From: Bacteroidota bacterium
Lineage (GTDB): Bacteria > Bacteroidota > Bacteroidia > Chitinophagales > Chitinophagaceae
Reading direction: 5' to 3'
DNA length: 62,577 nt
Assembly (NCBI GenBank): GCA_026391455.1
Contig: JAPLEH010000041.1
Span: 103,728 to 166,304 of the forward strand
Shown here: piece after piece, positions 42,596 to 57,636 of the stretch
Layout of the letters: each line of letters begins with the position of its first letter
Numbering within the stretch: the first letter of the stretch is position 1
Position numbers and translations under genes: made by a program
Notes under the pieces: generated by a model
The model's input: only the letters and a program-made list of their open reading frames with translations
Database searches by the model: none
What the model was told of the DNA's origin: nothing

Positions 42596-42626
42596 TATTA
42601 GCTAATACAAATTATTGATTATCAAT
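42596..42626. promoter_or_regulatory. Candidate operator sites upstream of the XRE gene
   Basis: A perfect 12-bp palindrome TATTAGCTAATA (42596-42607) and an inverted repeat ATTGA-TTA-TCAAT (42614-42626), 35-65 bp before the XRE promoter. They could bind the HTH protein encoded just downstream. Confidence 0.4.
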
Positions 42627-42660
42627 ACATAATTTGTTCATTAATTTATTTGAAATTTAT

Positions 42661-42691
42661 TTTGATATTTTACAACTAAGTATTAAATTTG
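42661..42691 (+). promoter_or_regulatory. Promoter of the XRE/ImmA-like gene (full consensus)
   Basis: TTTG (42661-42664), a 19-bp spacer and TAAATTTG (42684-42691) match the Bacteroidota consensus exactly. The ATG at 42699 is only 7 bases after the -7 element, so the mRNA would be almost leaderless. Confidence 0.75.
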
Positions 42692-42698
42692 GAAACAG

Positions 42699-43754
42699 AT
42701 GAGAAATTCCGTCAATCCAAAGATGATATTACTGGCCCGCGAGTCCAGGGGGCTTACCCAGCAGGCTTTGGCTGAAATGGCTGGCACCAATAAAGTGAAT
42801 TTATCGCGCCTGGAAAACGGTGATTCAGTAGTGTCGGATGAAACCTTAGCGGGTATTGCTACAGCCACCGGATACCCGGTTTCTTTTTTCTTTCAAACCG
42901 GCGAGGTGTTACCACTCAGCCTGGCCTACCGCAAACGGGAAAAGGTGCCTGCCTCTATTATCAGCCCGATTGAAGCGCAGATCAATATCATGCGTTTACA
43001 ATTAGAAAAACTGATTACGCTGGTAAAGCTTGCAGCACCTGTAATTCCTGTATTTGAAGTAACGGATGAACTAAGGCCTTCCGCTATTGCTTTACGGTTG
43101 CGGCAAGTCTGGAAAATAAAAACAGCGGAGATTCCGGATATGGCGGAATTACTGGAAGAAAAAGGAATACTCATTCAGTCCTTTGATTTTGGCACCGAAA
43201 GAGTGGATAGTAAAAATGTACTGGTACGCGAAAAATATCCGGTCATTTTTCTGAATGCATCCCTGTTGGGCGACCGGCAACGTTTTTCGCTGGCTTATCA
43301 GTTGGGTCATTTTATTATGCATACATTTTGCAAAGTTCCGCATGACCGGGATATTTCGCATGAAGCCAATGAATTTGCCGCATCCTTTTTAATGCCAGAG
43401 CGCTATATCCGGAAAGAACTGGAAAACGGGATCAGCATACCACTATTGGGAGAGCTAAAACAAAAATGGAAAGTCTCCATGATCTCCTTGCTCTATCGGG
43501 CGGATGATCTGGGATTGCTTACCCCGAATCAGAAAAGATACCAGGAGCAGCAGTTTAATCAACTGAACATTCGCCGGAGGGAACCAGCAGAACTGGACAT
43601 TGCTATTGAAGAACCAAAACGGATACGGCAATTAATGGACAAATGCCAGCACCAATTACAACAGCATATCAGTGGCATATCAGCACTGTTTTGTATGCTG
43701 GAATCAGAGTTTCTGGAATTGTATGGTGAACCAACCCATTTGAAAAGTATTTAA
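42699..43754 (+). CDS. XRE HTH regulator fused to an ImmA/IrrE-like domain with broken protease motif
   Basis: 351 residues. The N-terminal XRE helix-turn-helix (about 8-66) reads LTQQALAEMAGTNKVNLSRLENG. The second half matches ImmA/IrrE metallopeptidases that cleave phage repressors: FSLAYQLGHFIMH aligns with the usual FxLAHELGHxxLH, but the first zinc His is Tyr200 and the catalytic Glu is Gln201; His204 remains. The third-ligand region HEANEFAASFLMP is intact. The protein is therefore probably inactive as a protease and may act as a sensing or binding domain. It is followed at once by a small HTH gene and then by the phage-like lysis cassette. Confidence 0.88.
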   Translation: MRNSVNPKMILLARESRGLTQQALAEMAGTNKVNLSRLENGDSVVSDETLAGIATATGYPVSFFFQTGEVLPLSLAYRKREKVPASIISPIEAQINIMRLQLEKLITLVKLAAPVIPVFEVTDELRPSAIALRLRQVWKIKTAEIPDMAELLEEKGILIQSFDFGTERVDSKNVLVREKYPVIFLNASLLGDRQRFSLAYQLGHFIMHTFCKVPHDRDISHEANEFAASFLMPERYIRKELENGISIPLLGELKQKWKVSMISLLYRADDLGLLTPNQKRYQEQQFNQLNIRRREPAELDIAIEEPKRIRQLMDKCQHQLQQHISGISALFCMLESEFLELYGEPTHLKSI

Positions 43755-43756
43755 AC

Positions 43757-43981
43757 ATGATAATGACAATGAGCAACGCAAGAAAGACGGTGGAAGTAAA
43801 AGTGTACAGCATTGGCGAGCTGGCTGCTTTGTATGAGATCAGTGTGCGCACCATGAACCGGTGGCTGAAACCTCATCTCGAAAAAATTGGAAAACGCGAG
43901 GGCCGGTTTTACAGTGTAAAACAGGTGGGGATTATTTTTGATCAACTGGGAATGCCTGGTGATTATGACCGGGTTTCATAA
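43757..43981 (+). CDS. Small helix-turn-helix (excisionase/MerR-like) protein
   Basis: 74 residues from the first ATG; the ATGs at codons 4 and 6 are also possible. The core is YSIGELAALYEISVRTMNRWLKPH, a winged-helix or HTH typical of excisionase-like and phage regulatory proteins. It starts 2 bp after the XRE gene stop, so the two are co-expressed. It ends shortly before a terminator that separates the regulators from the lysis genes. Confidence 0.75.
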   Translation: MIMTMSNARKTVEVKVYSIGELAALYEISVRTMNRWLKPHLEKIGKREGRFYSVKQVGIIFDQLGMPGDYDRVS

Positions 43982-44009
43982 AAGCTTTAACCATATAAAA
44001 ATTTGTAAG

Positions 44010-44034
44010 CCGCCTTTTGAGGCGGTTTTTTTTT
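44010..44034 (+). terminator. Terminator after the regulator pair
   Basis: CCGCCT (44010-44015) pairs with AGGCGG (44020-44025) around a TTTG loop, followed by nine T. Confidence 0.88.
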
Positions 44035-44159
44035 AACATCTATCTACTCATTTCTACTTGTTTCTTCTTCTTTCTTCCTCATCCCGCATATACATACAAT
44101 TACATGTAGAAACAGGTCTTTACCTGCTCAAAACGGACAGTACCCCCTCTCCACCATAG

Positions 44160-44191
44160 TATGTTTGTGTTGTCAATAACTGATAACAACA
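44160..44191 (+). promoter_or_regulatory. Promoter and overlapping inverted repeat of the lysis cassette
   Basis: TATGTTTG (44160-44167) matches TAnnTTTG. TGTTGT (44168-44173) and ACAACA (44186-44191) form an inverted repeat over the predicted start point, directly before the amidase ATG at 44193; a possible operator. The -33 element is poor. Confidence 0.45.
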
Positions 44192-44192
44192 A

Positions 44193-44615
44193 ATGAAACG
44201 TACCATCAAATACCTCGTAGTGCATTGCACCGCCACCCCTCCTGAAGCCAAAGTGGAAAACATCGTTCGCTATTGGAAAGAACAGAAAAGATGGAAAAAT
44301 CCGGGCTATCATTATATCATACGAAGAAACGGAGAGATTGTTCAATTGCTGTCGGAAGACCTGGTGGCGAATGGCGTAAAAAATAACAATCAGCCTTCTA
44401 TACATATTTCTTATATCGGAGGTATTGATGGCAACAATAAGCCTCTCGACAACCGAACACCGGAACAAAAAAAAGCATTGTATCTGAAACTACGGGAACT
44501 CGCATCACGCTTTCCGCTTGCCGAAATAAAGGGGCATCGTGATTTTCCGGGTGTAACCAAAGCCTGTCCATCCTTTGATGTAAAAACCTGGCTCAGGGAT
44601 TATACGCCCGATTAA
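44193..44615 (+). CDS. T7-lysozyme-like N-acetylmuramoyl-L-alanine amidase (phage-type endolysin)
   Basis: 140 residues, the size of T7 lysozyme. Zinc ligands His11, His115 and Cys125 (YLVVHCTATP, IKGHRDFPGVTKACPSFD) and the catalytic Tyr39 (NPGYHYIIRRNG) and Lys123 all correspond to the T7 enzyme. It cuts the amide bond between N-acetylmuramic acid and the stem peptide. It has no signal peptide, so it needs a holin or another route to reach the wall. A small two-helix protein follows 18 bp downstream. Confidence 0.92.
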   Translation: MKRTIKYLVVHCTATPPEAKVENIVRYWKEQKRWKNPGYHYIIRRNGEIVQLLSEDLVANGVKNNNQPSIHISYIGGIDGNNKPLDNRTPEQKKALYLKLRELASRFPLAEIKGHRDFPGVTKACPSFDVKTWLRDYTPD

Positions 44616-44633
44616 TGAAATAAAATAAACCTT

Positions 44634-44852
44634 ATGAATACTTTCATCAAACAACTCTTTAAAGACAAGAACGGAAATTTCAGTCTTCGTGAATTTGCCA
44701 CAGCATTATTTATTCTCGTAATCATCATTAGCTGGGCAGCCAGACAGTTTTTTGGTAAAGATGTGCCTGAGTATATGTTCTACACATTTGCCAGCATGAT
44801 AGGAGCCGGATGCTTTGGTTATTCATTGGAGAAAAAAGAATTAACAACCTGA
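44634..44852 (+). CDS. Holin-like small membrane protein
   Basis: 72 residues. Starts LFKDKNGNFSLREFATALFIL, the N-terminal layout I associate with small phage membrane proteins of Bacteroidota, and has two membrane helices (about 22-37 and 48-66) with a short charged end (SLEKKELTT). The position directly after an endolysin gene and the size fit a class II-like holin; the assignment is inference and no similarity search was done. Confidence 0.6.
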   Translation: MNTFIKQLFKDKNGNFSLREFATALFILVIIISWAARQFFGKDVPEYMFYTFASMIGAGCFGYSLEKKELTT

Positions 44853-44865
44853 AAAAAATCAAACT

Positions 44866-45516
44866 ATGAAACGTGTAAAAGAAATCGCATTGGTTATATG
44901 CGGATTAGTGATCGGAATAGCGCTGTCTGTTTTATTTAGAAAAAGCGCGGCAAGTGAAAACCTGTCTTTAACTGCAAACCCCGGTTCCGCGAAAAAGCTG
45001 GAACAAAAAGTCGCTGCACAGGAAAAACAGGTTCATTTACTAATAGAAAATATGAACCAAAAAAACATACTGTTGGTTGAAGAAATTCAATCATTGAAAG
45101 ATGAGTTGTCTGCAACCAGAATAAATAGCCGTAAGCTGCAGATCATCACGCATGATCTGGCAACGAAGAAAACGGCTGCTACCGATACAGCGCTGCGGCT
45201 GGCTGATTGTGATACGCTGAAAGAAAAAGTGGTGCTGCTGAATAATACCATTCAGGCAGAGGAAAGTTTATGTGATAGTATCATAAGCAGCCAGCAACAG
45301 CAACTTTTGCTGAAAGACAGCACCATACAATTGCACCATGTCCTTTACAACGGGCTTAAGCAATCTTTTACTGAAAGTATCGCACAGCAACAAGTATTAC
45401 TGGATCAGAACAGTTTTTATAAAAAACAATTGCGGAAGCAAAAATTCAAATCAAAACTCATTTCCGGTTTGGCAATCATTGCCGCAGGGGTTACCACACA
45501 TTATTTACTGAAGTAA
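44866..45516 (+). CDS. Membrane-anchored coiled-coil protein (possible spanin-like lysis protein)
   Basis: 216 residues. An N-terminal membrane helix (about 5-23, KEIALVICGLVIGIALSVLF), a long coiled coil (about 44-190), and a second hydrophobic stretch at the C-terminus (LISGLAIIAAGVTTHYLLK). i-spanins of phages have one inner-membrane anchor and a periplasmic coiled coil; this protein fits, except for the extra C-terminal hydrophobic segment. It starts 13 bp after the holin-like gene. It could instead tether the downstream giant proteins to the membrane. Confidence 0.55.
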   Translation: MKRVKEIALVICGLVIGIALSVLFRKSAASENLSLTANPGSAKKLEQKVAAQEKQVHLLIENMNQKNILLVEEIQSLKDELSATRINSRKLQIITHDLATKKTAATDTALRLADCDTLKEKVVLLNNTIQAEESLCDSIISSQQQQLLLKDSTIQLHHVLYNGLKQSFTESIAQQQVLLDQNSFYKKQLRKQKFKSKLISGLAIIAAGVTTHYLLK

Positions 45517-45789
45517 AAAATCCTATTGCCAGATGTGCAAATGCCTGTACAAACAGGTAAAGGGAACCTTTTACCCTAAAACAAAGCAAATGAACAGTCA
45601 AAAGATCTTTCCTGTATGTGGTGGTATGTTAGTTCTCAGCCACCCTAAAAAAATGAGATGTAAATCCCGCAATACACCATGGAGAATTACATAGTCTGTT
45701 AATCTGCCACGGGAGATTCCGGGCCAACAGTCCGCAGGATTTGACCAATCCTGTAATAAAAAGATTACATAATTAATAAATAGAAAAGA

Positions 45790-48700
45790 ATGTCAAACGA
45801 CAATTTAAATACAATAAATAATATTTCACAAACGCTGTTTCGGTTTGCCACCATGCGTAACCCGGAGCTTTCTGATCCAAAAAACAAAAACCGGAGGTTC
45901 ATATTCAGAACTAATACACAGATCGGCGTTTTTGATTCCCGCGTAAATGCTACAACCACTTTGCAAATGCTTTGCGCAAATCCGGCCAGCCTTCCGCTCA
46001 CCATAGAAACGGAGGAATCGCTGAAAGCTGCAGTGCCTTTATTCTACGAATTAGCTGTATGGGTCGCCAGGAATAAAGCCAGGGTATCCAAAGCAGAATT
46101 CGATGAAAAGATCAACACGAGCAGGGCATTGGTAAATCCAGTATGGAACAATGAATCCAGACTCTGGGATAACCTGATCTACCAGGTGGTAACTCAGAAA
46201 GATTTCTACGCCAAAGAAACACTCATGCAGTTTTTACACCTGAACCATATTCTTTCCGTGTATGACGGTACCGAAGAAGTATACCAGGACGTGATTAATG
46301 CAAAAGTGGTACTTCCTAAAGAGCTGTTCAAAGTATCAGGCACTGAAAATACAGCTGAGCAGGTTCCGGCTGCAACCAATATGCCGTACAATGACAAGAA
46401 TATGAAATTCGCTGAGGCTACGATTCAATTGCAGTCCAATAAACAGTTAGCCTGCACCATCGAAAAACTGGAATCCGATTACCAAAAAGAATACCAGGCC
46501 GCATACCAATCAGCCGATGCTTCCTATAATCAGGAAATAAAACCATTGGTTGATGAATACCAGGCCCAGTTGTCGGCTATGGAAACACGGAAAAAAATGC
46601 TGGAGAACCGGATCAGTTACCTGTCCGGACTTAGTCTGGCCAATCCGGAAACATTCGATCGCAATTCCAATATTCAGAGTGAAATGATCAGCCTGCAGGA
46701 AACATTGCTGTCCCTGAATGTACCTGCTCCGGAAATACCATCATTCAATTTCAGTTTCAAACCAGAAATTCAACCAGAAGTACTGGAAAGTATACTGACC
46801 GCAGATGAGGCCAACACTTTAAGCCGGGTATTTGGTAAAAGCAATGCAGGTGCAGCACTTCAGACTGTTAGTTCCTATGGGGAAATAACTGACGCAATTA
46901 CCTCTAACAGCCAACAACTCCGTCAGACGATTCTGGACAATACGGTAGTAGAACAGGATACCTATGCGAAAGTAGGTGGTGTTCTCGTACCTGTAAATAA
47001 CCGGTTAACCGATGGTGCTCCTGTACCCTTTAGCGTAAAAACCTATCGCAGGAATAATACAAGCTGGTTTATCATGCTGACCATTGAAAACCTCGCTCAT
47101 AATATTATGTCAGGTTCTTATAAGGTAACGGTTGGCGGCACTGAAATCAGTTCTAACACATTCTTCCAGGCGGTAAACGGTGTAAGTTTTCTTTTTTATC
47201 TGGGAAGCAATATACCAGCTGCGTTGACCCAGAACATGGTAAGCTTCGTGTTAAGTGGTGATGTTATTCTCGAAGATGGAAAAACTTATACACTCAACGT
47301 TACATTATCCCGTGATTTTTCAGAGACTGAGCCTGTACTGATGCAGCATGTGTTCAAAGGTAGTAGTGCGCTGACGATGAAGGGAGCAGCAGAAGAACCA
47401 GGTGATGGTGTAGTAAGCGGGGCCTTTATTCCCTCCGGATTTGGCATGAAGAATATCGGCATAGCCGATTATCGGAAAGTGGAGCAAAGTACCTATTGCT
47501 ATGTAGAAGGAGATGTGGCTCATATTGAGAACATCATGGCAAGGGAATACAAGGAAAAATCTACCCGCAGGCTTCGCCGGAGTGAAAGTCAGATTACTAC
47601 TTCGTCTGAAACAGAACGCGAACAACAAACGGATACTACTACCAGTTCCCGGCATGAGATGCAGAGTGAAATTGCGAGTATCCTTCAGGAATCAAAAGAT
47701 TTCTCAGCGAATACCGGGTTTTCGGCAACCTATGGTAGCGGTAAAGGGCCTCAGCTTTCCTTCAACACCGGCACCAACTTCGCCACCCATAATTCCAAAG
47801 AAGAAAGCAACCGGCAGGCAGTAACCGAAGCCAAAGAAGTTACTACCCGCGCGCTGGACAGGATCGTTACGAAAGTTCGCCAAGAGCGTATTGACAAGAT
47901 CATGGAAGAGTTCGAAGAGAACAATAAACATGGATTTGACAATACTAAGGGTACCGGTCACGTAGTGGGTGTATACCGCTGGGTGGATAAAGTGGTAAAG
48001 AACCAGATCTACAACTATGGCAAACGGATGATGTTTGAATTTATGATACCTGAACCCGCCAGGTTGCACAAACTGGGTATGAAGTTTTCAAATAGCAATG
48101 AAAACATGCTCATAAAACCGACAGATCCCCGTACCTCAGCGATTCATAAGATTGAAAACTTCTCTGCATTAGAAAACGAAGTGGCTCTGAAATACTGGGC
48201 AGGTTTGTATAATGTCGAGCTTGATGCCCGACCTGAAAATGAAATAAGGGTAACCAAAGCCATCAGTGTTTCCAATGGGGAAACCAGTGGGGAGATGGCC
48301 GCAAAAGCGGATTCGATTGAGATTCCCGAGGGATATACTACGGCGGAAGGCTGGCTGACGGCAAGTCATTTCTTTCATCCGAAAGGATTTGAATGGACAC
48401 ACTTTGGAGTGACCGTAGGTGATTATTACAAGTTACTCAACCGTTCGCTGCAACATCTCCAGATTAATGAACGGATCACGTTCAAAAAGAAATATTCCCA
48501 AAAGGTGGGATTTGCTTTCGAAAGCGCTGATACCGCTGGCGTAAACATCAGCGTGTCGCTGGACTGTGTGATTACGCCTGAAGCGAAGAACGACTGGTTG
48601 CAGAAAACCTTTAATAAGATTATCGGGGCTTATGAAACAGAGAAAGCCCTCTACGAACAGGCTGTGGCAGAAGCAAAGGTACAGGCCGATAATATCAAAG

Positions 48701-49857
48701 GTTCCAATCCCGGGTTTTACAGAAAGATCGAGAATACGATCCTGCGCAGGAATTGTATTTCTTATATGATCAACCAGGATACTACTGCTCCGCTTACGTT
48801 TGGAAAAGATTCCTACTATTCGAATAATTATCCGGGTACAGAGGAATTTCTCAAAACGGATATTAAAGTGGATGCCAAACTGGATGCCTATGCCGCATTT
48901 GTGAAATTCATGGAGCAGGCATTTGAATGGGAACTGATGTCCTATTATTTCTACCCGTATTATTGGGGCAACCGTAAATCATGGGCAGATCTATACCAGT
49001 TCGACGACAATGATCCGGTATTCCGTTCCTTTATGCAGAGCGGCATGGCGAGAGTAATTGTAACAGTACGTCCCGGCTTTGAAGAAGCAGTACGTCATTA
49101 CCTGGCAACCGGAAAGATCTGGAATGGTGGTGAAATACCCGTCATAGATGACCCACTCTTCCTTTCCATTGTGGATGAAATGCGGACACCGAAAGGCACC
49201 AAAGAAGGTGAACCATGGAGAGAGCGTATTCCAACTGCGCTTACCATTCTGCAGGCAGATTCTATCGGACTGAAAGTAGAAAAAGCATTACCCTGCTACT
49301 GCGAACCCGGTGTAAAGTTTGACGATAACCTGGGAGAACTATGCGGAAGTAATTTCCTGCTGAATCAGAATCAGTTGGGGCAGAATGCAGACAGATGGAT
49401 GGAGATCAGTTTTATCAAGCTCGATAACTTCACAAGAATCGGAGATATGGATGGAGATCCCTCTTTTTATCCAAGAACCTATGAATGCTTGGGCAATACA
49501 ATAACCGTTGATAGAGATGCCAGTTGGTTACCCAATGATCCCCTGTCAAAAATCTATCAGGTTGTGGCCGATGAGGTTTCCCAGATTGAAGGGGTGGAAG
49601 CATATACGACAGCTGAGAACGGCATAACATTTAAAATCAATGCCGGAAAAATAAACAACTTCACTTTCCGCAAACCCGGTGAGGACGATGATTATGAATT
49701 GCTGAAATTCTCCGTCGATCTGCAAAATAATACACTGAAGATAACATCACCTGGTTACAATACATACGGAGATCGACGTATCCTGGATAAAGACGGTCAG
49801 GTGATTCCACAGGCGGAGTACCTCGACAAAGTGCCTTTAAGCAAATTCCTGCTCTAA
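45790..49857 (+). CDS. Giant leaderless protein, 1355 aa, of unknown family
   Basis: No signal peptide (MSNDNLNTINNISQTLFRF) and no type IX C-terminal sorting domain. Residues 195-290 are a coiled coil. Residues 580-660 are an extremely polar Arg/Glu/Ser/Thr stretch (RRLRRSESQITTSSETERE), leading into a long helix and the conserved-looking GVYRWVDKVVKNQIYNYGKR near residue 727. Another helical region lies around 930-970. Cysteines cluster at about 1167-1190 (LPCYCEPGVKF, ELCGSNF). I have seen similar large proteins in other Bacteroidota near toxin genes but cannot name a family. It starts 273 bp after the coiled-coil protein and precedes the nucleotidyltransferase and toxin genes. Likely a carrier, shell or delivery component. 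Confidence 0.7.
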   Translation: MSNDNLNTINNISQTLFRFATMRNPELSDPKNKNRRFIFRTNTQIGVFDSRVNATTTLQMLCANPASLPLTIETEESLKAAVPLFYELAVWVARNKARVSKAEFDEKINTSRALVNPVWNNESRLWDNLIYQVVTQKDFYAKETLMQFLHLNHILSVYDGTEEVYQDVINAKVVLPKELFKVSGTENTAEQVPAATNMPYNDKNMKFAEATIQLQSNKQLACTIEKLESDYQKEYQAAYQSADASYNQEIKPLVDEYQAQLSAMETRKKMLENRISYLSGLSLANPETFDRNSNIQSEMISLQETLLSLNVPAPEIPSFNFSFKPEIQPEVLESILTADEANTLSRVFGKSNAGAALQTVSSYGEITDAITSNSQQLRQTILDNTVVEQDTYAKVGGVLVPVNNRLTDGAPVPFSVKTYRRNNTSWFIMLTIENLAHNIMSGSYKVTVGGTEISSNTFFQAVNGVSFLFYLGSNIPAALTQNMVSFVLSGDVILEDGKTYTLNVTLSRDFSETEPVLMQHVFKGSSALTMKGAAEEPGDGVVSGAFIPSGFGMKNIGIADYRKVEQSTYCYVEGDVAHIENIMAREYKEKSTRRLRRSESQITTSSETEREQQTDTTTSSRHEMQSEIASILQESKDFSANTGFSATYGSGKGPQLSFNTGTNFATHNSKEESNRQAVTEAKEVTTRALDRIVTKVRQERIDKIMEEFEENNKHGFDNTKGTGHVVGVYRWVDKVVKNQIYNYGKRMMFEFMIPEPARLHKLGMKFSNSNENMLIKPTDPRTSAIHKIENFSALENEVALKYWAGLYNVELDARPENEIRVTKAISVSNGETSGEMAAKADSIEIPEGYTTAEGWLTASHFFHPKGFEWTHFGVTVGDYYKLLNRSLQHLQINERITFKKKYSQKVGFAFESADTAGVNISVSLDCVITPEAKNDWLQKTFNKIIGAYETEKALYEQAVAEAKVQADNIKGSNPGFYRKIENTILRRNCISYMINQDTTAPLTFGKDSYYSNNYPGTEEFLKTDIKVDAKLDAYAAFVKFMEQAFEWELMSYYFYPYYWGNRKSWADLYQFDDNDPVFRSFMQSGMARVIVTVRPGFEEAVRHYLATGKIWNGGEIPVIDDPLFLSIVDEMRTPKGTKEGEPWRERIPTALTILQADSIGLKVEKALPCYCEPGVKFDDNLGELCGSNFLLNQNQLGQNADRWMEISFIKLDNFTRIGDMDGDPSFYPRTYECLGNTITVDRDASWLPNDPLSKIYQVVADEVSQIEGVEAYTTAENGITFKINAGKINNFTFRKPGEDDDYELLKFSVDLQNNTLKITSPGYNTYGDRRILDKDGQVIPQAEYLDKVPLSKFLL

Positions 49858-49887
49858 GGTGGTTCATTCACTTCAATCTATTTGAAC

Positions 49888-50295
49888 ATGAGCAAAGTGA
49901 AAACCGGAGCTATATGGCAGCACGAACGTGTGCTGCCATATATTCTCTCTTGTCTCAAAGACAGGATCAGCAACATAACGCCCGTAAAAAAAATTCTCCT
50001 TTTTGGCAGCCGGGGCCGGCTACCCATCCACCGGTGGCAGGAACTGGAAGGAAAAGACTGGGACATCGTAGTACAGGCCGGTTGCAAACTAAAAAATGCA
50101 CAGGTGCTGGTGGACGAAGGATACCATATTGACCTGTTGGTGCTGAATGAAGAACAGGTAGAAAAATTCTGCTATAACCGGTTGGTGAAGGAGATATATC
50201 CGGTGAATGAAATTAATTATTTACTACAAAAAATAAATCAACATGGGAACAATGAAAGCCCTGATCGAGTTTCTTCGGCTCAGGCGACGATATGA
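49888..50295 (+). CDS. Minimal nucleotidyltransferase (MNT)-like protein
   Basis: 135 residues from ATG 49888 (a TTG two codons upstream also opens the frame). It shows the polymerase-beta-type signature: ILLFGSRGR (Gly40-Ser41), then the metal-binding pair Asp57 and Asp59 in KDWDIVVQAG, and a third Asp82 in YHIDLLVL. MNT antitoxins usually pair with HEPN toxins; no HEPN-like gene is next door. It overlaps the downstream toxin gene by 53 bp, which points to coupled translation and perhaps to modification or neutralisation of the 935-residue protein. This is inference. Confidence 0.75.
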   Translation: MSKVKTGAIWQHERVLPYILSCLKDRISNITPVKKILLFGSRGRLPIHRWQELEGKDWDIVVQAGCKLKNAQVLVDEGYHIDLLVLNEEQVEKFCYNRLVKEIYPVNEINYLLQKINQHGNNESPDRVSSAQATI

Positions 50296-53050
50296 AGAAT
50301 ATGAAAAACAGCGCAAACCGGAGGAAACGGTGCTTACGTTGCGCTATCTTGATGATAGTAATCTGTACTATACACCTGACAGGGAAGAGTTTTATACAGA
50401 TAAGTACAAAAGGATTTACTACATTTTAGAGGGCTACAATGCAACGTCTATTTTTGTCTGGGAAAATAGCGAAGAGAAAACATTCCTTGTGAAGGATCGC
50501 CAGGGAGTATATCACAATCTTCCGGATAACACTGTGGTGCGCCCCCGGAAAAATGAATTGATGGAGTTTCCTATCGAAGGAGCCACGACAGATTATATCT
50601 ATGACACTCTTAGAAAACAAGTAGTCCTGTTCATACAAACACTACCGCCAGTGAAGGTATTTTCCGATACTTTGGTGTATGAGGCCTATAGCAAATACCT
50701 CGCAGAAGTGAAAAATGGCACTTATGACTATGTGTTAAAACTGCCAGTTGACCTTTCAGACGGTTTCTGGATTAAAGATATTGAAGAATTTTTAAAAGAA
50801 TATCCTGAGTCAAACAGCAATGTAACTGTTAAAAAATCAATCAAACCCGGAGCCATTGACTTAATTCCAATCATGGAAGTTGATTTGGGAACCAGTAATT
50901 TTAAATTAAAATATGCGTATTACAAGAAAGGGTTTCAGCCAACAATCGCATTACGGGACGAAGATTGTGCCCTCGTTCTTAAATTCGATTGGTGGGGATC
51001 ATTATTATCGTTTTTGAATGAAACACTTTTCAGCCAGGGGCTTGATTTTGGGGATAACAATGGCCGGTCCCGAAAGAGATTTGAAACCCAATTTACCGAA
51101 CAAGTAATCCGTGTATTCGAACGAAAAGTAAGAAGCAATGTCTATTTGTATTACCGGGAAGCAATGAAAGCATTGTTTTATATACCGGTAAACATTGGAA
51201 GACATATAAGTAATGATGTTTTGTGGAAACTGATAGAGTATGGTATCCGCTACAGTAAACTCAATGATACTTTTACATTGCTTGAAGGTGAACTGTTTGT
51301 GAAACTAATTGAGATCATAATTGAAAAAAAAGAGCAACCCAGCAAATACATTGAGCGGCTCAGCCAGGTGATGACTGATAAGTCTGAATTCAATAATACG
51401 ACTTACAGGAAGGGAAGTACGATACTTGAAAGCCTGTATCATCGTCTGGATGGATCGAACTTCGTCAAATTCCTGGATCTTACAAAAGCAGCCTGGAAAA
51501 ATTCAAGGTTTGTAATCCCAAGCGTTTCCCAAAATCCTGAATTCAAATCCTCTGATGGTCCTTTATTCCTTTCCTACAAATCGGATAAGTTTTTAGGCCT
51601 GTACTTCAGCAACGCAAAGGTTACATTCAAAAATAAAACTGATGAAGAAAGTCTTTTGCATGTGGCATATGAAACTGGAGAAAAGCATTCAGTATTGGCA
51701 CCTAACATAACAGGTGAAAAGGAGGAAGAGATTATTGAATATTACTGGTATCATCCGTTTCATCCTGTGTATCTTAAAAATATTGAACAGCAGGATACGA
51801 AACTTAAACTGGAGAGAATTGTACCCGCTTTTCTGCTCAAGGCTAATCGTGATCAGCAGTTCAACAGCAACATCTCTACTTCCATCGAATATGGCATCGA
51901 CGCAATTACAACATTTTCAGGTTTGGGAAATCTGACAAAATTCCGGTACCTGACCAATGTCGTAAAAAGAGTAAGGACGATCAGCTTTGTGAGCAAAGCA
52001 GGAAGAACAGCGGTAGGTATAAAAAGAGCAGTGCGAGGAGTGGCAGCCTTTGTGGAAATATCCAGCGGAACCATCAATGCTTTATTGAAGATTTCGAATA
52101 TGCGTGATACAAAAGCCGGACAGGAAATATCCGAGTTTTTATTCTGGATGGAAATACTTAGCATGAGTGGAGAACTTACTGTTGCAATACATGAAGGTTT
52201 AAAGAAAAGTGCAAAGAAAATAATAGATAATGAGAATGTAATTATCAGGGAATTAGATAAATTAGATAACATTGATAATGAGTTGAAAATTAGTTTTTTT
52301 GATGACCTGAAAAAAATAATCAATGACTACATTGATGCCAAATCGACTCTTGGAATAGTTCCTAGTCTTAGTAACGCAGCAGAAATAAAGCTATACAAAG
52401 AAATCAAAAGAATATTCTTCAGTACTTATGGGAATATTTTAAAAAGGGAATATGTTAGCACAAGTAAAATTCTTCTTGAGTGGAAAAAGCTAAAAATCAT
52501 GAAGCCATTAGCGAAGTCAGACATAGAAGAATTACTTGAAATAAGATCACGATACTTTGGTGTTAATGCATATGAGAATATTGCCAAACTTGAAGTCGAA
52601 ATTTCTGTCAATGGAGAAAGAAAAGTACTTCAATATAAGGCTATATCAGGCGCCTCAAATGATATTAAAGGATTCTCTCAAACTCCAGATATTGGCTATA
52701 TGGCAAAACAATTAAATTCAACATCAAAAGAAATAAGAAAGCTTTTTAATGCGAAATCTGCAGATAGTAAGCGTTTAATCAATAGATTTAGTGATACAGA
52801 ACATAAGATATTTGCTAATTTTGATGATGACATGCAAAAACTATTTGCTATTTATGGAAAATCCGATGTTCGAGTTCATAGTTTTAACTTCAAATCTCTG
52901 TACTCACCTTGTAATTCATGTAAAAAGCAGGTTCTAATAAGAAAGAATATTTACAAACCAGAAAAAATTACATTCGAAGCAGTGCAAGCAAAAAACGGCA
53001 AATTTGTAGAAACTGCGAAAGGCTTAAATGAATTTTTAAAAACATACTGA
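50243..53050 (+). CDS. Large leaderless polymorphic toxin with deaminase-like C-terminal tip
   Basis: 935 residues, no signal peptide (MGTMKALIEFLRLRRRYEEYE). Residues 1-540 are of no family I know. A hydrophobic, basic segment lies near 551-616 (GIDAITTFSGLGNLTKFRYL and SKAGRTAVGIKRAVRG), similar in layout to pre-toxin membrane-active regions. The tip has SDTEHKIF (Asp851, Glu853) and SPCNSC (Cys890, Cys893), the DxE/PCxxC layout of zinc-dependent toxin deaminases such as the BURPS668_1122 type, from memory. The next gene after one base is SUKH, a known immunity family for such toxins. Base composition falls strongly near 52200 within the gene. Confidence 0.7.
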   Translation: MGTMKALIEFLRLRRRYEEYEKQRKPEETVLTLRYLDDSNLYYTPDREEFYTDKYKRIYYILEGYNATSIFVWENSEEKTFLVKDRQGVYHNLPDNTVVRPRKNELMEFPIEGATTDYIYDTLRKQVVLFIQTLPPVKVFSDTLVYEAYSKYLAEVKNGTYDYVLKLPVDLSDGFWIKDIEEFLKEYPESNSNVTVKKSIKPGAIDLIPIMEVDLGTSNFKLKYAYYKKGFQPTIALRDEDCALVLKFDWWGSLLSFLNETLFSQGLDFGDNNGRSRKRFETQFTEQVIRVFERKVRSNVYLYYREAMKALFYIPVNIGRHISNDVLWKLIEYGIRYSKLNDTFTLLEGELFVKLIEIIIEKKEQPSKYIERLSQVMTDKSEFNNTTYRKGSTILESLYHRLDGSNFVKFLDLTKAAWKNSRFVIPSVSQNPEFKSSDGPLFLSYKSDKFLGLYFSNAKVTFKNKTDEESLLHVAYETGEKHSVLAPNITGEKEEEIIEYYWYHPFHPVYLKNIEQQDTKLKLERIVPAFLLKANRDQQFNSNISTSIEYGIDAITTFSGLGNLTKFRYLTNVVKRVRTISFVSKAGRTAVGIKRAVRGVAAFVEISSGTINALLKISNMRDTKAGQEISEFLFWMEILSMSGELTVAIHEGLKKSAKKIIDNENVIIRELDKLDNIDNELKISFFDDLKKIINDYIDAKSTLGIVPSLSNAAEIKLYKEIKRIFFSTYGNILKREYVSTSKILLEWKKLKIMKPLAKSDIEELLEIRSRYFGVNAYENIAKLEVEISVNGERKVLQYKAISGASNDIKGFSQTPDIGYMAKQLNSTSKEIRKLFNAKSADSKRLINRFSDTEHKIFANFDDDMQKLFAIYGKSDVRVHSFNFKSLYSPCNSCKKQVLIRKNIYKPEKITFEAVQAKNGKFVETAKGLNEFLKTY

Positions 53051-53051
53051 T

Positions 53052-53522
53052 ATGGAAATAACTTATTTGCAAAAATTAAAAAACAACCCGACAATTTTCA
53101 GTGAATCAATAAGAGGGGTTTCGGAAACGGAAATTGCCGCTTACGAAAAAAAACTCAAAGTAAAATTCCCGAAATCGTACAAAGAATACTTATTCTTAGC
53201 GGGTGATTATGATGGCGATCTGCTTATGCTCAGGGGCTATTCAGGTATACGCGAATTAGGAAATCCTGCATTTCAGGAGCATTTAGAAGCCGTGAAAAAA
53301 AAGGCAGGGGTAAAAATAAAACGACCTTATTGGGTATTTACAGGCGAAGAAGACTGTTTTGATTTTTTCTATCTGGATGAGAACACTGAAAATCCAAATG
53401 TATATACCTGCGAATGGGCATTCGGTACAGCAGAAGTAGAGTCACTTAATCAAACGTTTAGTGATTATATAGATAACGTGATAGATGACTCTAAGGCCCA
53501 TTACAAGGGATTATATGGTTGA
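53052..53522 (+). CDS. SUKH (SMI1/KNR4) family immunity protein
   Basis: 156 residues. The characteristic N-terminal ETEIAAYEKKLKVKFPKSYK and YLFLAGDYDG segments and the C-terminal FDFFYLDENTENPNVYTCEW segment fit the SUKH-1 fold. SUKH proteins neutralise nucleases and deaminases delivered by neighbouring cells. It starts one base after the toxin stop, so it is the likely cognate immunity gene. Confidence 0.88.
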   Translation: MEITYLQKLKNNPTIFSESIRGVSETEIAAYEKKLKVKFPKSYKEYLFLAGDYDGDLLMLRGYSGIRELGNPAFQEHLEAVKKKAGVKIKRPYWVFTGEEDCFDFFYLDENTENPNVYTCEWAFGTAEVESLNQTFSDYIDNVIDDSKAHYKGLYG

Positions 53523-53641
53523 CAGAAAATAAAATCTATGTTTCCACATCCATTTTCTCCGATCCAAGCCTGGTGCTTTGCAGGGAGGGCGGGCGACTTA
53601 TCGTAAGGCTTTTCAAAAAGATTACTAAATCGCACTTTACC

Positions 53642-53670
53642 AAAATCCGGTTCTAAGAACCGGATTTTTT
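53642..53670 (+). terminator. Terminator in repeat copy 1
   Basis: AAAATCCGGTT (53642-53652) pairs with AACCGGATTTT (53658-53668), then T. It lies 15 bases before the ATG of the 170-residue gene, so that gene needs a promoter inside or after the hairpin, or leaky readthrough. Confidence 0.8.
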
Positions 53671-53684
53671 ATAAATTCACGCAA

Positions 53685-54197
53685 ATGTTATCAGAAAAAG
53701 AACAAATACTGAATCATAATCAGGGAGAGATCCCGATAGGAGAATATGATATATTAAGAATAAAAGACATTCCAAACCCTGAACAGGAGCTAAACACCTT
53801 TAAGCAAACGGTAATTGCATTTCTGGAGCACCGGGATTTAAACAAAAAAGATCCCAAATGGCGGCAAATATTACCCACAGCATTGGTAAAATTTACAGAG
53901 CAACTGAAAGAAGAAGACTTCCACAAGGACGATATCATATATAATATCCAAAGTATCATCGATACGCTGCAGGAGGTAAAAGACTGGGAATGGTACAGCT
54001 CCAGGCTTACCCCGAACGGATTTGACGTTTATATGAAAGGTATGTTCAGAGGAATATTTTTACCGATGATTCACCAGCAGGGGATTCCCCATACCAGCTT
54101 ATTTATAATCAGGGATGGGAAAGAATATCCAACATATGCACTTACCGATGTACTTACATATAGGAAATGGAATCCGAACACATTAAAGTTGACGTAA
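53685..54197 (+). CDS. Probable immunity protein, 170 aa, copy 1
   Basis: Acidic, cytoplasmic, no signal peptide. The C-terminal half has the WYSSRLTPNGFDVYMKGMF and GIPHTSLFIIRDGKEYPTYA segments, which look like a compact alpha/beta domain. I do not know the family. Copy 2 at 55013 differs at only 8 of 170 residues (T65K, Q89P, S90G, D93N, T94K, N165V, K168E, T170K). The small size, position after a toxin gene and duplication suggest an immunity role. Confidence 0.65.
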   Translation: MLSEKEQILNHNQGEIPIGEYDILRIKDIPNPEQELNTFKQTVIAFLEHRDLNKKDPKWRQILPTALVKFTEQLKEEDFHKDDIIYNIQSIIDTLQEVKDWEWYSSRLTPNGFDVYMKGMFRGIFLPMIHQQGIPHTSLFIIRDGKEYPTYALTDVLTYRKWNPNTLKLT

Positions 54198-54202
54198 ATT
54201 GT

Positions 54203-54233
54203 AAAATGACTGCCTTTTTCAGACAGTCATTTT
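54203..54233 (+). terminator. Terminator after copy 1 gene
   Basis: AAAATGACTG (54203-54212) pairs with CAGTCATTTT (54224-54233); T-rich tail follows. It is 6 bases after the stop of the 170-residue gene. Confidence 0.7.
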
Positions 54234-54264
54234 AATTTATTTAGGTAAGCATCAGATCCATTTG

Positions 54265-54272
54265 TAAATTTG
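54265..54272 (+). promoter_or_regulatory. -7 element before the 176-aa gene
   Basis: TAAATTTG matches TAnnTTTG exactly, 50 bp before ATG 54323. The -33 half is poor. Confidence 0.45.
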
Positions 54273-54322
54273 AAAATTCTGGATTAAGAAAGCGAGTTGA
54301 TAAGAAAATTTTACGAAAAGTT

Positions 54323-54853
54323 ATGGCAGACAAATTACCACTTGATTGGATATTTTATCAGCACAAATATGAGTATGCACTTGGTAAGGGCAAATACGAC
54401 GACCCTCAATATGTTGCCCTCATGCCATCCATGGACAAATTCAATGAATATATCCTTAGTTGCAGTACGGCAGAATTTACAAAAACGATAGTGGAGATAT
54501 TCAGGGATCATTACCCTGTAAATTTTCTTAGCATTGACTCCATGTTAAGCTGGGATGAAAAAACCGAAACCTGCATTGAGGGTAAAGCGTTCCGTAAAGC
54601 TGGCGACATTAAGCAAATCTACTTTGAAACGGACGAGGATGGTTTGGTGCTGGAAAAAGTTCTATTTAAATATACAAACAAGCAGACTGACGCCAATAAA
54701 TGGGTCGAGACAGGACTTGAAGGAAAAGCCTATTCAAAAACGGTACAGGGCGGATTCACAACCTATAAACTTGTTAATGAAGTTATAGAGAAAGTCGAAG
54801 TGAATGAGATGGAATTCCGTTTATATGTAAACTCCAATAAAGCGCCGGAATAA
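54323..54853 (+). CDS. Probable immunity protein, 176 aa, unknown family
   Basis: No signal peptide or membrane helix; predicted mixed alpha/beta. Contains TGLEGKAYSKTVQGGFTTYK and IDSMLSWDEKTETCIEGKAF segments without a family I can name. It lies between the two copies of the 170-residue gene, with its own -7 element at 54265. Assigned to the immunity array by position and size only. Confidence 0.55.
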   Translation: MADKLPLDWIFYQHKYEYALGKGKYDDPQYVALMPSMDKFNEYILSCSTAEFTKTIVEIFRDHYPVNFLSIDSMLSWDEKTETCIEGKAFRKAGDIKQIYFETDEDGLVLEKVLFKYTNKQTDANKWVETGLEGKAYSKTVQGGFTTYKLVNEVIEKVEVNEMEFRLYVNSNKAPE

Positions 54854-54969
54854 AGCCGGATACAAAATCATTCCCAATCATTTTTCCCAACTTTGTCCGT
54901 GAGTACTGCAGTGACAGCTGACAACTTAAGGTAAGGCTTTTCAAAGAGATTACTAAAGCGCACTTTACC

Positions 54970-54998
54970 AAAATCCGGTTCTAAGAACCGGATTTTTT
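54970..54998 (+). terminator. Terminator in repeat copy 2
   Basis: Same hairpin as at 53642-53670, 15 bases before the ATG at 55013. Confidence 0.8.
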
Positions 54999-55012
54999 AT
55001 AAATTCACGAAA

Positions 55013-55525
55013 ATGTTATCAGAAAAAGAACAAATACTGAATCATAATCAGGGAGAGATCCCGATAGGAGAATATGATATTTTAAGAATAAAAGACATTC
55101 CAAACCCTGAACAGGAACTTAACACCTTTAAACAAACGGTTATTGCATTTCTGGAGCACCGGGATTTAAACAAAAAAGATCCCAAATGGCGGCAAATATT
55201 ACCCAAAGCATTGGTAAAATTTACAGAGCAATTAAAAGAAGAAGACTTCCACAAGGACGATATCATCTATAATATCCCAGGCATAATCAATAAACTTCAG
55301 GAGGTAAAAGATTGGGAATGGTACAGCTCCAGGCTTACCCCGAACGGATTTGACGTTTATATGAAAGGCATGTTCAGAGGAATATTTTTACCGATGATTC
55401 ACCAGCAGGGGATTCCTCATACCAGCTTATTTATAATCAGGGATGGGAAAGAATATCCAACATATGCACTTACCGATGTACTTACCTATAGAAAATGGAA
55501 TCCTGTTACACTAGAATTGAAATAA
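55013..55525 (+). CDS. Probable immunity protein, 170 aa, copy 2
   Basis: Near-identical paralogue of the protein at 53685, differing at eight positions, four of them within residues 89-94 (NIPGIINK instead of NIQSIIDT) and three in the last six residues. These may be surfaces that contact a toxin; that is inference. Both copies retain full open frames, so both are likely functional. Confidence 0.65.
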   Translation: MLSEKEQILNHNQGEIPIGEYDILRIKDIPNPEQELNTFKQTVIAFLEHRDLNKKDPKWRQILPKALVKFTEQLKEEDFHKDDIIYNIPGIINKLQEVKDWEWYSSRLTPNGFDVYMKGMFRGIFLPMIHQQGIPHTSLFIIRDGKEYPTYALTDVLTYRKWNPVTLELK

Positions 55526-55575
55526 ATCTATTTGGAGCAGCTATAGGATACAATTGACAAGTATTTTTTATTTTA

Positions 55576-55974
55576 ATGAAAGCAACAAAGGAACAAATCA
55601 TCGAAATCGGCTTGCAAATTGTAAAAAACATTTACAATATTTCCGGCAGTCAAAAAAATGTGATTGCAGATGAAGAGAAAGTTAGCTTGTATCCACCGGG
55701 TGTTGATGGTTATTATGTACACAATGGTTGGGTATTCATAACCCGGAATGCCAGCCCGGAAAGCAGTAAAAAACTATCTTATATGGTTTACCTTCTTGAC
55801 GACGGAACTCCGGTATTCAGTGAACATGTATCAGAAGAAGTGTTGGAAAGTGTAAGGCCTGCGTATATCATCAAGGGCACTACCGGTAAATACCAAATCA
55901 TTTCTAAAGAAGGGCATTTCAAACACCACAATTTCGATCTTACCAAACCGGAATTCAGGAAAATGAAGTATTAA
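55576..55974 (+). CDS. Probable immunity protein, 132 aa (possibly YrhB/Imm35-like)
   Basis: Short soluble protein with VDGYYVHNGWVFITRNAS and YMVYLLDDGTPVFSEHVS, a layout like the YrhB/Imm35 immunity family, but the match is weak. It is the fourth small gene of the array after the toxin. No signal peptide. Confidence 0.5.
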   Translation: MKATKEQIIEIGLQIVKNIYNISGSQKNVIADEEKVSLYPPGVDGYYVHNGWVFITRNASPESSKKLSYMVYLLDDGTPVFSEHVSEEVLESVRPAYIIKGTTGKYQIISKEGHFKHHNFDLTKPEFRKMKY

Positions 55975-56064
55975 TTTTAAACAAGTAAAAACAGCTTTTA
56001 ATTCCACAGTTAAGTGATCGGTTGCAGCTATCATCATTTGATCAACATAAAGCGCGCATAAATC

Positions 56065-56463
56065 ATGCAGTTCATTTTTTCTGATACAGAAGGCCACGAA
56101 GCCCTTCACACTGATACCTCCTTTTTACTAGAGGTGCTATCGCGCCCCTATACCGATTGGCAATCCGGCACCGGCGACAATGCCATTCAGATGAAAGACG
56201 ATGAACGGCTTATCTTTTTCAAAACAGAACAGGGCGTATTCATCATGCAACACCCCGATTACCTGGCGCCACTTATTCAAAAAAACAACAGCAATGCCAA
56301 CCCAATCACTCATTATGTAGGAGGAGAACCAATGGAGATTCCACCCGCTTGTATGTGTAACGAACAGATTGCTTTTGAAATCCTGAAAAACTATATTGTT
56401 TCGGGAGGCCTGCCGGATAAATCATACACCTGGGTTGAATTTACAGAACTGATACAGGACTGA
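56065..56463 (+). CDS. Probable Imm1-like immunity protein, 132 aa
   Basis: The central HYVGGEPMEIPPACMCNEQ and the C-terminal NYIVSGGLPDKSYTWVEF recall the Imm1 family of immunity proteins, which end in a short Gly-rich loop and a conserved Trp; this is a memory-based match. Soluble, no signal. Last gene of the array before the core gene for endonuclease V. Confidence 0.5.
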   Translation: MQFIFSDTEGHEALHTDTSFLLEVLSRPYTDWQSGTGDNAIQMKDDERLIFFKTEQGVFIMQHPDYLAPLIQKNNSNANPITHYVGGEPMEIPPACMCNEQIAFEILKNYIVSGGLPDKSYTWVEFTELIQD

Positions 56464-56467
56464 TCAG

Positions 56468-56475
56468 TAGTTTTG
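56468..56475 (+). promoter_or_regulatory. -7 element before the endonuclease V gene
   Basis: TAGTTTTG matches TAnnTTTG and lies 8 bases before ATG 56484, so the message would be nearly leaderless. The -33 half is not evident. Confidence 0.45.
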
Positions 56476-56483
56476 CATCTTCC

Positions 56484-57152
56484 ATGGACAAACACGAAAA
56501 CAAATCGCTGAATGATCTGCAGGAATCATTGAAAAGAAAGCTGGACTTTTCAGCCAGTAACCTGTATGCACCAAAGACCGGTGATTGCCTGCTCACCCTG
56601 GATGCCTTATACAAAAACGGAATCGCATCCGTAGGTATTGATATCACGCAGTATCCAGCTACTCCCATTCACACTGAACAATACATCACCACCGTAACCG
56701 GAAACTATGTACCCGGTTATTTTTCCTTTTATGAAGGGCCCGTACTGCTGGATACCCTGCTCTACCTGGCAGGTAAGCAGATCCTACCCGACCTCATTAT
56801 TGCAGACGGACATGGCCTCGCCCACCCCCGGCAATTTGGACTCGCCTGCTACATTGGCGCTCATACCGGACTACCCGTGATCGGTATCGCTAAAGAAAGC
56901 CTGCTGCCTTTTGATAAATCAATACTCGGCCCCGAACAATATGCCGCTCATAATTTTGAAGAGCAGGGCCACCCAACAGGTGTGGCGATCCGTTTGCAAA
57001 AAGGACGCAACCCCGTGTATATCAGTGCGGGCAACCGCATTTCGCTGCCAACTGCTATTGACTTAATCAAACAACTCAGTTCCGATTTCAAATACCCCGA
57101 TAATATGCGACGGGCCGATGCGGCTTCGCGCATCCATGCACAGAAATCCTGA
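56484..57152 (+). CDS. nfi: Endonuclease V (inosine-specific DNA/RNA repair nuclease)
   Basis: 222 residues. Cuts one base 3' of deoxyinosine (or inosine in RNA in some relatives). The motifs VGIDITQ (Asp53), VPGYFSFYEGP (Glu84; the usual FRE is FYE here) and ADGHGLAHPRQFGLA (Asp108) carry the catalytic acidic residues. Downstream GIAKES and SAGNRISLPTAIDL are also family hallmarks. The Arg to Tyr change beside Glu84 is unusual compared with the E. coli enzyme. Confidence 0.9.
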   Translation: MDKHENKSLNDLQESLKRKLDFSASNLYAPKTGDCLLTLDALYKNGIASVGIDITQYPATPIHTEQYITTVTGNYVPGYFSFYEGPVLLDTLLYLAGKQILPDLIIADGHGLAHPRQFGLACYIGAHTGLPVIGIAKESLLPFDKSILGPEQYAAHNFEEQGHPTGVAIRLQKGRNPVYISAGNRISLPTAIDLIKQLSSDFKYPDNMRRADAASRIHAQKS

Positions 57153-57268
57153 TCACGGAGCATCTATATCCCCCGGATACTTAGCTGTTTTTCCTTCACT
57201 GAATTCTCTTTCTGAAATCTTTTTTTATTTCACTGCCGCTTATTATCTTGTCGGCCTAAAATATAGCC

Positions 57269-57625
57269 ATGGATAATAATATGAATCCCGCCGAAGCTCC
57301 CGCAGGCAAAGAATACACAGAAGAAACGGTAAAATATATCGCCACCCTTTTACGGGATGGTAAAGATCCTTCGTTTGTAGTAGCCAATCTGGTGGAGAAT
57401 GGTTATCCCTATGATTCCACATATGCCCTCGTAACAGCGGTGCATCAAAAAATGAGCAACAATCAGGTTGTGCATGAAAAAAAGAATGCCTCCGCAGACC
57501 TGATCTTTGGCCTCATACTTCTGGTGGCCGGTATCGCCATTACGGTATCCAGTGCCGGCGTGATCTGGTATGGCGCCATACTGGTGGGAGCTATTAAAAT
57601 AATCCGGGGCCTTTCCAATCTTTAA
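57269..57625 (+). CDS. Small membrane protein with N-terminal helical domain
   Basis: 118 residues. A soluble helical N-terminal part (YTEETVKYIATLLRDGKDPS, VVANLVENGYPYDSTYALV) resembling a short UBA-like or helix-hairpin module, and two closely spaced membrane helices at the C-terminus (ADLIFGLILLVAGIAITVSS, IWYGAILVGAIKIIRGLS). No family I can name. The DUF3592-like gene starts 12 bp downstream, so they probably form an operon. Confidence 0.7.
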   Translation: MDNNMNPAEAPAGKEYTEETVKYIATLLRDGKDPSFVVANLVENGYPYDSTYALVTAVHQKMSNNQVVHEKKNASADLIFGLILLVAGIAITVSSAGVIWYGAILVGAIKIIRGLSNL

Positions 57626-57636
57626 TTTCAATACGC

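Follow-up and report, generated by a model that had tools for sequence, protein, structure and literature searches.

The window analysed here, a 62,577-nucleotide stretch of contig JAPLEH010000041.1 from a member of the Chitinophagaceae (Bacteroidota), holds an island in which a phage-type lysis cassette lies directly in front of a leaderless 1355-amino-acid (aa) protein, which we call the carrier, and a polymorphic toxin. On balance, we lean toward the view that this is a domesticated cassette that releases the toxin and the carrier by bursting the producer cell, in a manner resembling type 10 secretion (T10SS). The cassette appears to have been captured from a virus-like element and then retained alongside carrier-toxin modules in a single group of genomes, a reading we draw because most carriers lack the cassette, the lysis trio is found within a virus-like element, and cassette and carrier are linked within the genus.

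The lysis trio, the carrier, a nucleotidyltransferase-like gene, the toxin, and the immunity genes lie on a single strand (+, as do all features given below), just as the original prediction described them. The first gene (44193..44615) encodes an N-acetylmuramoyl-L-alanine amidase of the T7 lysozyme type, and its identification as an endolysin held: it matches PF01510 (9.8e-18) and phrog_822 of the PHROG lysis category (5e-51), aligns with T7 lysozyme at 1.3e-20, and retains His, Tyr, Lys, and Cys positions that we take to have catalytic and zinc roles. It matched 1617 phage records, the closest phage relative being that of Cellulophaga phage phi46:1 (58%). Since hydropathy revealed no signal peptide, the amidase would depend on a holin. 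After 18 bp comes a 72-aa holin-like membrane protein (44634..44852; hydropathy). It had been described as having two helices; one hydrophobic stretch is clear, but the second falls below the hydropathy cut-off used, and no family match was found in Pfam, NCBIfam, or PHROG. A two-helix holin is nevertheless plausible. Another 13 bp downstream, in the position of a spanin, is the gene for a 216-aa coiled-coil protein (44866..45516), whose strong N-terminal transmembrane segment (residues 6 to 24, hydropathy) agrees with the predicted membrane anchoring. Neither the carrier (45790..49857) nor the 935-aa toxin has a hydrophobic N terminus (hydropathy) or a match to a sorting domain of the type IX secretion system (T9SS), so the claim that both giants are leaderless also stands.

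In the window genome (G000), 16.4 kb separates a beta-helix gene from a GPx gene (42548 to 58902), and we take this interval as the island and as an upper bound on its size. The site is empty in two congeners (G425 and G428), in which the beta-helix and GPx genes are neighbors whose matched parts lie ~85 and ~65 bp apart. As had been predicted, profile scans of the island proteins (Pfam, NCBIfam, and PHROG) found no capsid or tail family. The sole exception to a phage-free island was a pair of weak terminase small subunit matches of a 74-aa helix-turn-helix (HTH) protein (phrog_57, 0.004; phrog_141, 0.008), which probably arise through its HTH. The cassette therefore lies outside a phage, as do those of type 10 secretion, as judged from the lack of capsid, tail, and other element proteins in the island and from the empty site in the two congeners.

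We examined linkage between cassette and carrier in 42 genomes of the genus and 394 genomes of the family; the family sample includes G000 and G003 (a member of another genus) and excludes G431, G438, and G439. The carrier is present in 4 of the 42 genomes of the genus (G000, G431, G438, and G439). The coiled-coil gene lies directly upstream of it in all four and also in G003. The complete lysis set is found in G000, G439, and G003, which are the three of the five islands whose contigs extend to it; among the genus carriers, the full cassette is seen in only two of four because the contigs of G431 and G438 begin at or within the coiled-coil gene. In those three genomes, the order M78-HTH-amidase-holin-like-coil-carrier-toxin-SUKH is complete. 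Compared with the window, G439 shows identities of 62% for the M78 regulator, 79% for the HTH regulator, 80% for the amidase, 79% for the holin-like protein (73% in G003), 39 to 43% for the coiled-coil protein, and 33 to 41% for the carrier; its island also contains an extra gene, p185, along with a toxin and a SUKH gene. G003 has two extra genes (573 and 126 aa) and a 110-aa gene between the regulator and the amidase. The shared site is identified by both flanks in G000; G439 shows the upstream flank, whereas G431 and G438 show the downstream one (GPx, deltaP), the second flank of these three lying beyond the fetched stretch; the G003 island lies nearby, between deltaP and PSP1 and not between beta-helix and GPx. 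When the cassette proteins were searched by tblastn against 100 carrier loci (that of G000 left out), matches were found in L107, L195, L199, and L200 only, and in the family sample the cassette was present in 2 of the 12 carrier genomes.

Of 147 genomes of the family, 9 (the window genome included) encode a homologue of the coiled-coil protein, and all seven homologues outside G000 and G003 belong to one kind of virus-like element (L116 to L122; L120 is partial, on a 6.3-kb contig). The element is also held by 6 of 20 further stretches drawn via the 74-aa regulator (L155, L157 to L160, and L172) and by one IMG/VR contig (L173), making 14 element loci. Judged from gene positions, it is ~18 to 20 kb long and encodes M78 and HTH regulators, a transglutaminase-like protein, a conserved 239-aa protein, a lysozyme, an annexin-like protein (PF00191), a peptidoglycan-binding protein, an amidase, a 200- to 220-aa protein, a holin-like protein, a coiled-coil protein, a methylase-helicase of ~1500 to 2300 aa, and a serine recombinase. 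Four possibly structural proteins gave no PHROG match. The front half of the island comes from this element. The question of prophage membership that the original prediction had raised thus has a two-sided answer: in relatives, the trio does sit within a virus-like element, but the 12 element proteins beyond the front and lysis genes, of which 4 to 12 match in each of the 14 element loci, have no match in any of the five islands. The island thus consists of the front and lysis genes of the element, the remainder of which has been lost and its place taken by the carrier and toxin. Seven of the 14 element loci hold a gene matched by the p185 protein of G439 (26 to 53%), G439 can be viewed as an intermediate form, and donor-type elements occur in the same family. 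Amidases (38 to 40%) and holins (51 to 72%) located ~1 kb apart, as in the elements, were found in four genomes of the genus, including G439. The element itself recurs in the family and could represent a virus or transfer particle that has not been described.

A comparison of the window with G439 shows saturation of synonymous differences, both in the cassette and in the flanking genes (proportion of synonymous differences [pS], 0.71 to 0.81; ~0.72 for the amidase and holin-like genes). The corresponding nonsynonymous values (pN) are lowest for the holin-like gene (0.11), the amidase (0.13), and the 74-aa regulator (0.14) and are higher for M78 (0.25), the coiled-coil gene (0.39), and the carrier (0.43). 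The reading frames of the cassette are intact, and it appears to be maintained and not decaying. The window carrier is ~60% identical to Chryseobacterium carriers compared to 33 to 45% for the carriers of its congeners. Different carriers are thus present under the same lysis genes: because the lysis genes are 79 to 80% alike between congeners and the carriers only 33 to 45%, we conclude that the carrier was exchanged under a stable cassette. We regard this exchange as the strongest argument for a functional tie.

Polymorphic toxin systems (Rhs, CDI, LXG, and those linked to the type VI secretion system [T6SS]) combine a constant N terminus with an exchangeable C-terminal tip and an immunity gene behind the toxin gene. 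The 935-aa toxin (50243..53050) has the same architecture, with a constant N-terminal part to residue ~680 and a deaminase tip at ~779 to 899; 12 of 14 blastp matches stop at residues 661 to 682; of the other two, one stops at 771 and one, a split frame, at 462. Beyond the matched part the tips differ, and by eye several contain HExxH or THNHPSG-type motifs. Unlike those systems, the toxin gave no match to Rhs, CDI, or LXG domains in Pfam and NCBIfam scans, and the carrier is a separate 1355-aa protein. The earlier description of a deaminase toxin is supported by a match of the C terminus to the BURPS668_1122 deaminase family (PF14424; 1.3e-5), although the score of 25.8 bits falls short of the Pfam cut-off of 29.6. 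This tip recurs in G003 (24% over 131 residues, 9e-8; 17.6 bits against the same profile), the N-terminal part being otherwise unmatched. The five islands have tips of four kinds: PF14424-like in G000 and G003, a MafB19 deaminase in G431, an EndoU nuclease in G438, and, in G439, a tip with a papain-like Gln_amidase match just below the cut-off. One base pair behind the toxin gene lies that of a SUKH-family (SMI1-KNR4) immunity protein (53052..53522; PF09346, 6.1e-12), in agreement with the predicted presence of immunity genes. Further orphan immunity-type genes follow, with roles assigned from position: a 170-aa gene (53685..54197) with 57% identity to the post-toxin gene in L048, a 176-aa gene (54323..54853) with 23 to 31% identity to post-toxin genes in L015, L044, and L073, a second copy of the 170-aa gene (55013..55525; 96% identical to the first), and a 132-aa gene (55576..55974) with 34% identity to the post-toxin gene in L056. 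Another orphan immunity-type gene of 132 aa (56065..56463) shares 55% identity with the gene that follows the MafB19-deaminase toxin in G431.

Upstream of the lysis genes are two regulators. One combines HTH and M78 (ImmA/IrrE-like) domains (42699..43754; PF06114, 3.1e-20; PF01381, 1.5e-11; 50% identity in G003), and the other is the 74-aa HTH protein (43757..43981), which has weak MerR_1 and HTH_17 matches, is 74% identical in G003, and has matches in 37 of the 394 genomes of the family. In L117, L155, L159, and L160, the M78 and HTH pair is part of the virus-like element or adjoins it. Between the regulators and the lysis genes is a terminator-like hairpin with a T-run (44007..44028), one of 19 sites from a scan for which 13.4 were expected. 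In front of the amidase gene is a conserved 20-bp motif, ATAGTATGTTTGTGTTGTCA, with the box TANNTTTG inside it (44156..44175), which we propose as a candidate promoter of the lysis genes; the full -33/-7 promoter consensus has no match there. The motif is found without mismatch in the window, with one mismatch in L107 and two in L199, and in 4 of the 14 element loci (no mismatch in L155 and L160, two in L159, and three in L158).

At the junction of carrier and toxin is the gene for a 137-aa Polbeta-type nucleotidyltransferase-like protein (49882..50295; a weak PF18765 match, E 0.045), which belongs to a cluster of 36 genes from 36 loci. Its 5' part, just behind the carrier, contains a conserved hairpin, GGCAGCAC-6nt-GTGCTGCC (49911..49942). 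The hairpin is present in 33 of 35 other loci with this gene (missing in L045 and L082) and persists, 30 to 48 bp behind the carrier, in five loci where no nucleotidyltransferase gene was recognised (L020, L023, L026, L028, and L083); it was not found in loci with the short carrier type. We aligned 39 cases including the window, chosen by a pattern that itself selects in part for the core; across 26 distinct sequences, only one cell departs from the eight inner pairs. Codons within the hairpin deviate from the usage of their own genes: His is CAC in 32 of 32 cases (34% elsewhere), Val is GTG in 32 of 32 (20%), Gln is CAG in 30 of 32 (44%), and Leu is CTG in 27 of 32 (16%), and both CAA cases are paired with TTG. 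Because few pairs vary, covariation is thin, with double changes at three pairs, a number equaled in 155 of 500 shuffles (2 of 500 on score). The hairpin may set the ratio of carrier to toxin or may serve as a site of toxin exchange.

The carrier falls below every Pfam and NCBIfam cut-off and has no PHROG match; its conserved core spans residues ~546 to 1170, with a jelly-roll at 815 to 928. Counting the window genome, it is present in 16 of 395 genomes of a phylum sample and in 12 of 394 of the family sample. Parts of residues 494 to 1169 were also found in 13 plasmid records besides one Chryseobacterium plasmid, including records from Sinorhizobium, Streptomyces, Tsukamurella, Cupriavidus, and the archaeon Natronorubrum. 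The genes behind carriers differ. Some encode polymorphic toxins; patatins are found in G225 and G276 and also in Natronorubrum, where a single short gene intervenes; G006 (and, by eye, G283) has a tail-collar protein; and others encode 520-aa proteins that are fibre-like by eye and have no family match. One genome collection gave 233 carrier matches, of which the best 80 yielded a set of 79 loci, mostly flavobacterial by title. A peptidase of the M15 endolysin type (PHROG lysis, 2.5e-30; PF13539) is encoded on the carrier strand and no more than 10 kb away in 25 of these loci, and a patatin in 27. M15 and patatin could be read as a second, unrelated lysis pair, but among the carrier-bearing genomes counted, M15 is present in 29 of 31 regardless of where the carrier lies. 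Because of this frequency, and because the M15 locus is a common landing site (carriers are found at 10 of 16 M15 sites), the link between M15 and carrier is weaker than it looks. A functional tie between them may still exist, since in L188 and L189 the arrangement is reversed, with carrier and toxin upstream of M15 and patatin.

Several side observations concern the carrier and its neighbors. Carrier residues ~636 to 665 form a variable, glycine-rich, predicted two-strand hairpin between strongly conserved helices, a pattern that by eye recalls the membrane hairpins of pore formers. By eye, the post-carrier genes of L112, L113, and L114 share a short N-terminal pattern, tyrosine and NP/S-rich, which is perhaps a docking tag for the carrier. 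A tail-collar gene lies directly behind the carrier in L115 (8460 to 9029; PF07484, 1.6e-15) and L193 (6887 to 7498; by eye), and in both loci a gene for a ~200-aa protein lies upstream beside this arrangement. The Chryseobacterium M15-patatin-WYL chromosomal site (L176 to L186, L190, and L191) has repeatedly taken up carrier-toxin modules and fibre-like genes. Within the window's own island, a gene for endonuclease V (56484..57152; PF04493, 3.1e-39) lies 20 bp behind the last orphan immunity-type gene, inside an island with a deaminase toxin; it had no match in the empty-site relatives G425 and G428 and is absent from the other fetched loci as well. The enzyme could repair deaminated DNA and so serve self-protection.

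In the release mechanism that we propose, the M78 and HTH regulators would switch on the motif promoter at 44156 to 44175, the amidase, holin-like, and coiled-coil proteins would be made, and the carrier and toxin would be produced too, probably by read-through. The holin-like protein would then open the inner membrane, the amidase would cut the wall, and the coiled-coil protein would aid disruption of the outer membrane. Carrier and toxin would be freed, the carrier would bring the deaminase toxin into competitors, and kin would be protected by SUKH and the other immunity genes.

A number of observations weigh against this scheme. None of the 79 mostly flavobacterial loci, which represent the top matches among 233, has the amidase, holin-like, or coiled-coil genes, and the cassette is likewise missing from all 10 other carrier genomes of the family, several of whose contigs are short. 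The predicted recurrence of lysis genes beside the carrier thus stands for the genus and G003, where the order recurs beyond chance, but not for these other carrier loci and genomes. Carriers without the cassette, the majority, must therefore have another exit, and the window carrier could use one too. In G431 and G438, whose contigs start at or in the coiled-coil gene, no amidase or holin exceeded thresholds elsewhere in the assemblies. With up to four mismatches allowed, the 20-bp motif is missing in 10 of the 14 element loci (some too short to reach it), and the 273 bp between the coiled-coil gene and the carrier contain no match to the promoter consensus used. Proteins were labeled as holin and spanin according to their size, hydropathy, and position, and by eye the window coiled-coil protein lacks the cysteine that follows the transmembrane segment in most homologues. 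The carrier core, although the most conserved part of the protein, has no confident predicted fold, either alone or in the whole protein; at a guess, this would suit an obligate oligomer. G000 has phage-sheath-type genes, which lie on contigs other than that of the island, and that the toxin is delivered into competitors we purely infer.

We weighed other explanations against lytic release. The cassette could be a prophage remnant beside a toxin island, its lysis genes a leftover and the carrier-toxin module inserted by chance at a hot spot with no functional tie. The trio and regulators do occur within the ~18- to 20-kb element in relatives, and the neighborhood is a hot spot, as the position of the G003 island between deltaP and PSP1 indicates. 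However, frames and aligned catalytic residues are retained at saturated synonymous divergence, the 20-bp motif is kept in the window, G003, and G439, the carrier is directly behind the coiled-coil gene in five genomes of two genera, and the lysis genes persist in islands from which the 12 other element proteins are gone. We therefore consider a remnant unlikely.

It is more improbable still, in our estimation, that the amidase (and, in Chryseobacterium, the M15 peptidase and patatin) acts on the wall or membrane of the target as an effector or entry aid of the carrier rather than as a release factor. The patatin phospholipases behind the carrier in G225, G276, and Natronorubrum and the frequency of M15 and patatin genes near carriers (25 and 27 of 79 loci) would fit such a role. 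The amidase, however, is accompanied by holin-like and spanin-like genes in the order of the element and has no immunity gene directly behind it, and the M15 link is weak for the reasons given above. Very unlikely, finally, is a carrier that exports itself or travels as cargo of vesicles or a contractile system, with the lysis genes assisting only under stress. The lack of such lysis genes near most carriers is in its favor, as are the phage-sheath-type genes elsewhere in G000, G431, and G439 (though not in G003 or G438). Set against these are the missing signal peptide and T9SS domain and the fact that neither of two kinds of sheath gene is common to all five island genomes: phage-sheath-type genes are found in three of the five and the T6SS sheath gene TssC in one (G003, the only positive; 0 of 4 genus members with the carrier and 0 of 14 control genomes). 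There was no sheath gene of an extracellular contractile injection system among the scanned island proteins. A broader proposal goes beyond lytic release and is, in our opinion, possible but doubtful: the carrier would belong to a new kind of modular toxin-delivery particle spread across Bacteroidota, other phyla, and one haloarchaeon, with a payload swapped behind the hairpin, and would here have come under a captured lysis and control operon that triggers and performs its release.

Type 10 secretion is described as comprising holin/endolysin/spanin clusters outside phages; in Yersinia, release was found to be lytic and by a subpopulation, and lytic cassettes lie directly within Tc toxin operons (PMC10847048). 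The island resembles the systems described there for Yersinia entomophaga and Serratia in having endolysin, holin-like, and spanin-like genes outside a phage and next to regulators and in having a large leaderless toxin cargo (PMC10847048). Unlike them, it belongs to another phylum, its T7-lysozyme-type amidase and 72-aa holin-like protein are common to the family's virus-like element, and its cargo is an undescribed carrier with a polymorphic toxin and not a recognised Tc toxin. Its endolysin and its place outside a phage fit the system, and we treat it as a candidate and not as an established member. Neither the carrier nor the toxin matched a Tc toxin domain (TcA or the RHS of TcB/TcC) in Pfam at E values up to 1; their predicted folds are unconfident. 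A leaderless toxin beside a holin-like gene and a wall hydrolase also recalls the holin/endolysin-linked release of large toxins, for which a review describes no Bacteroidota case in its main text, where "bacteroid" is absent (PMC9527704). The nearest Bacteroidota case in the literature searched is that of the Bacteroides prophage MuF toxins, such as Bxa, in which a polymorphic toxin and its immunity are likewise tied to virus genes; Bxa is fused to a capsid component in a prophage, whereas the island is capsid-free and its toxin is separate from the carrier (PMC11699363). The word "holin" is absent from the main text of that paper (PMC11699363), and the literature searched contained no paper joining T10SS and Bacteroidota.

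If correct, lytic release of the window's toxin would extend type 10 secretion to Bacteroidota and would show, by way of the intermediate form G439 and the family's donor-type elements, how bacteria turn the lysis and control genes of a virus into a toxin-release device. The island also draws attention to two further features, namely a large carrier family that our scans matched to nothing in Pfam, NCBIfam, or PHROG and a conserved nucleic-acid hairpin where the carrier and toxin genes adjoin.

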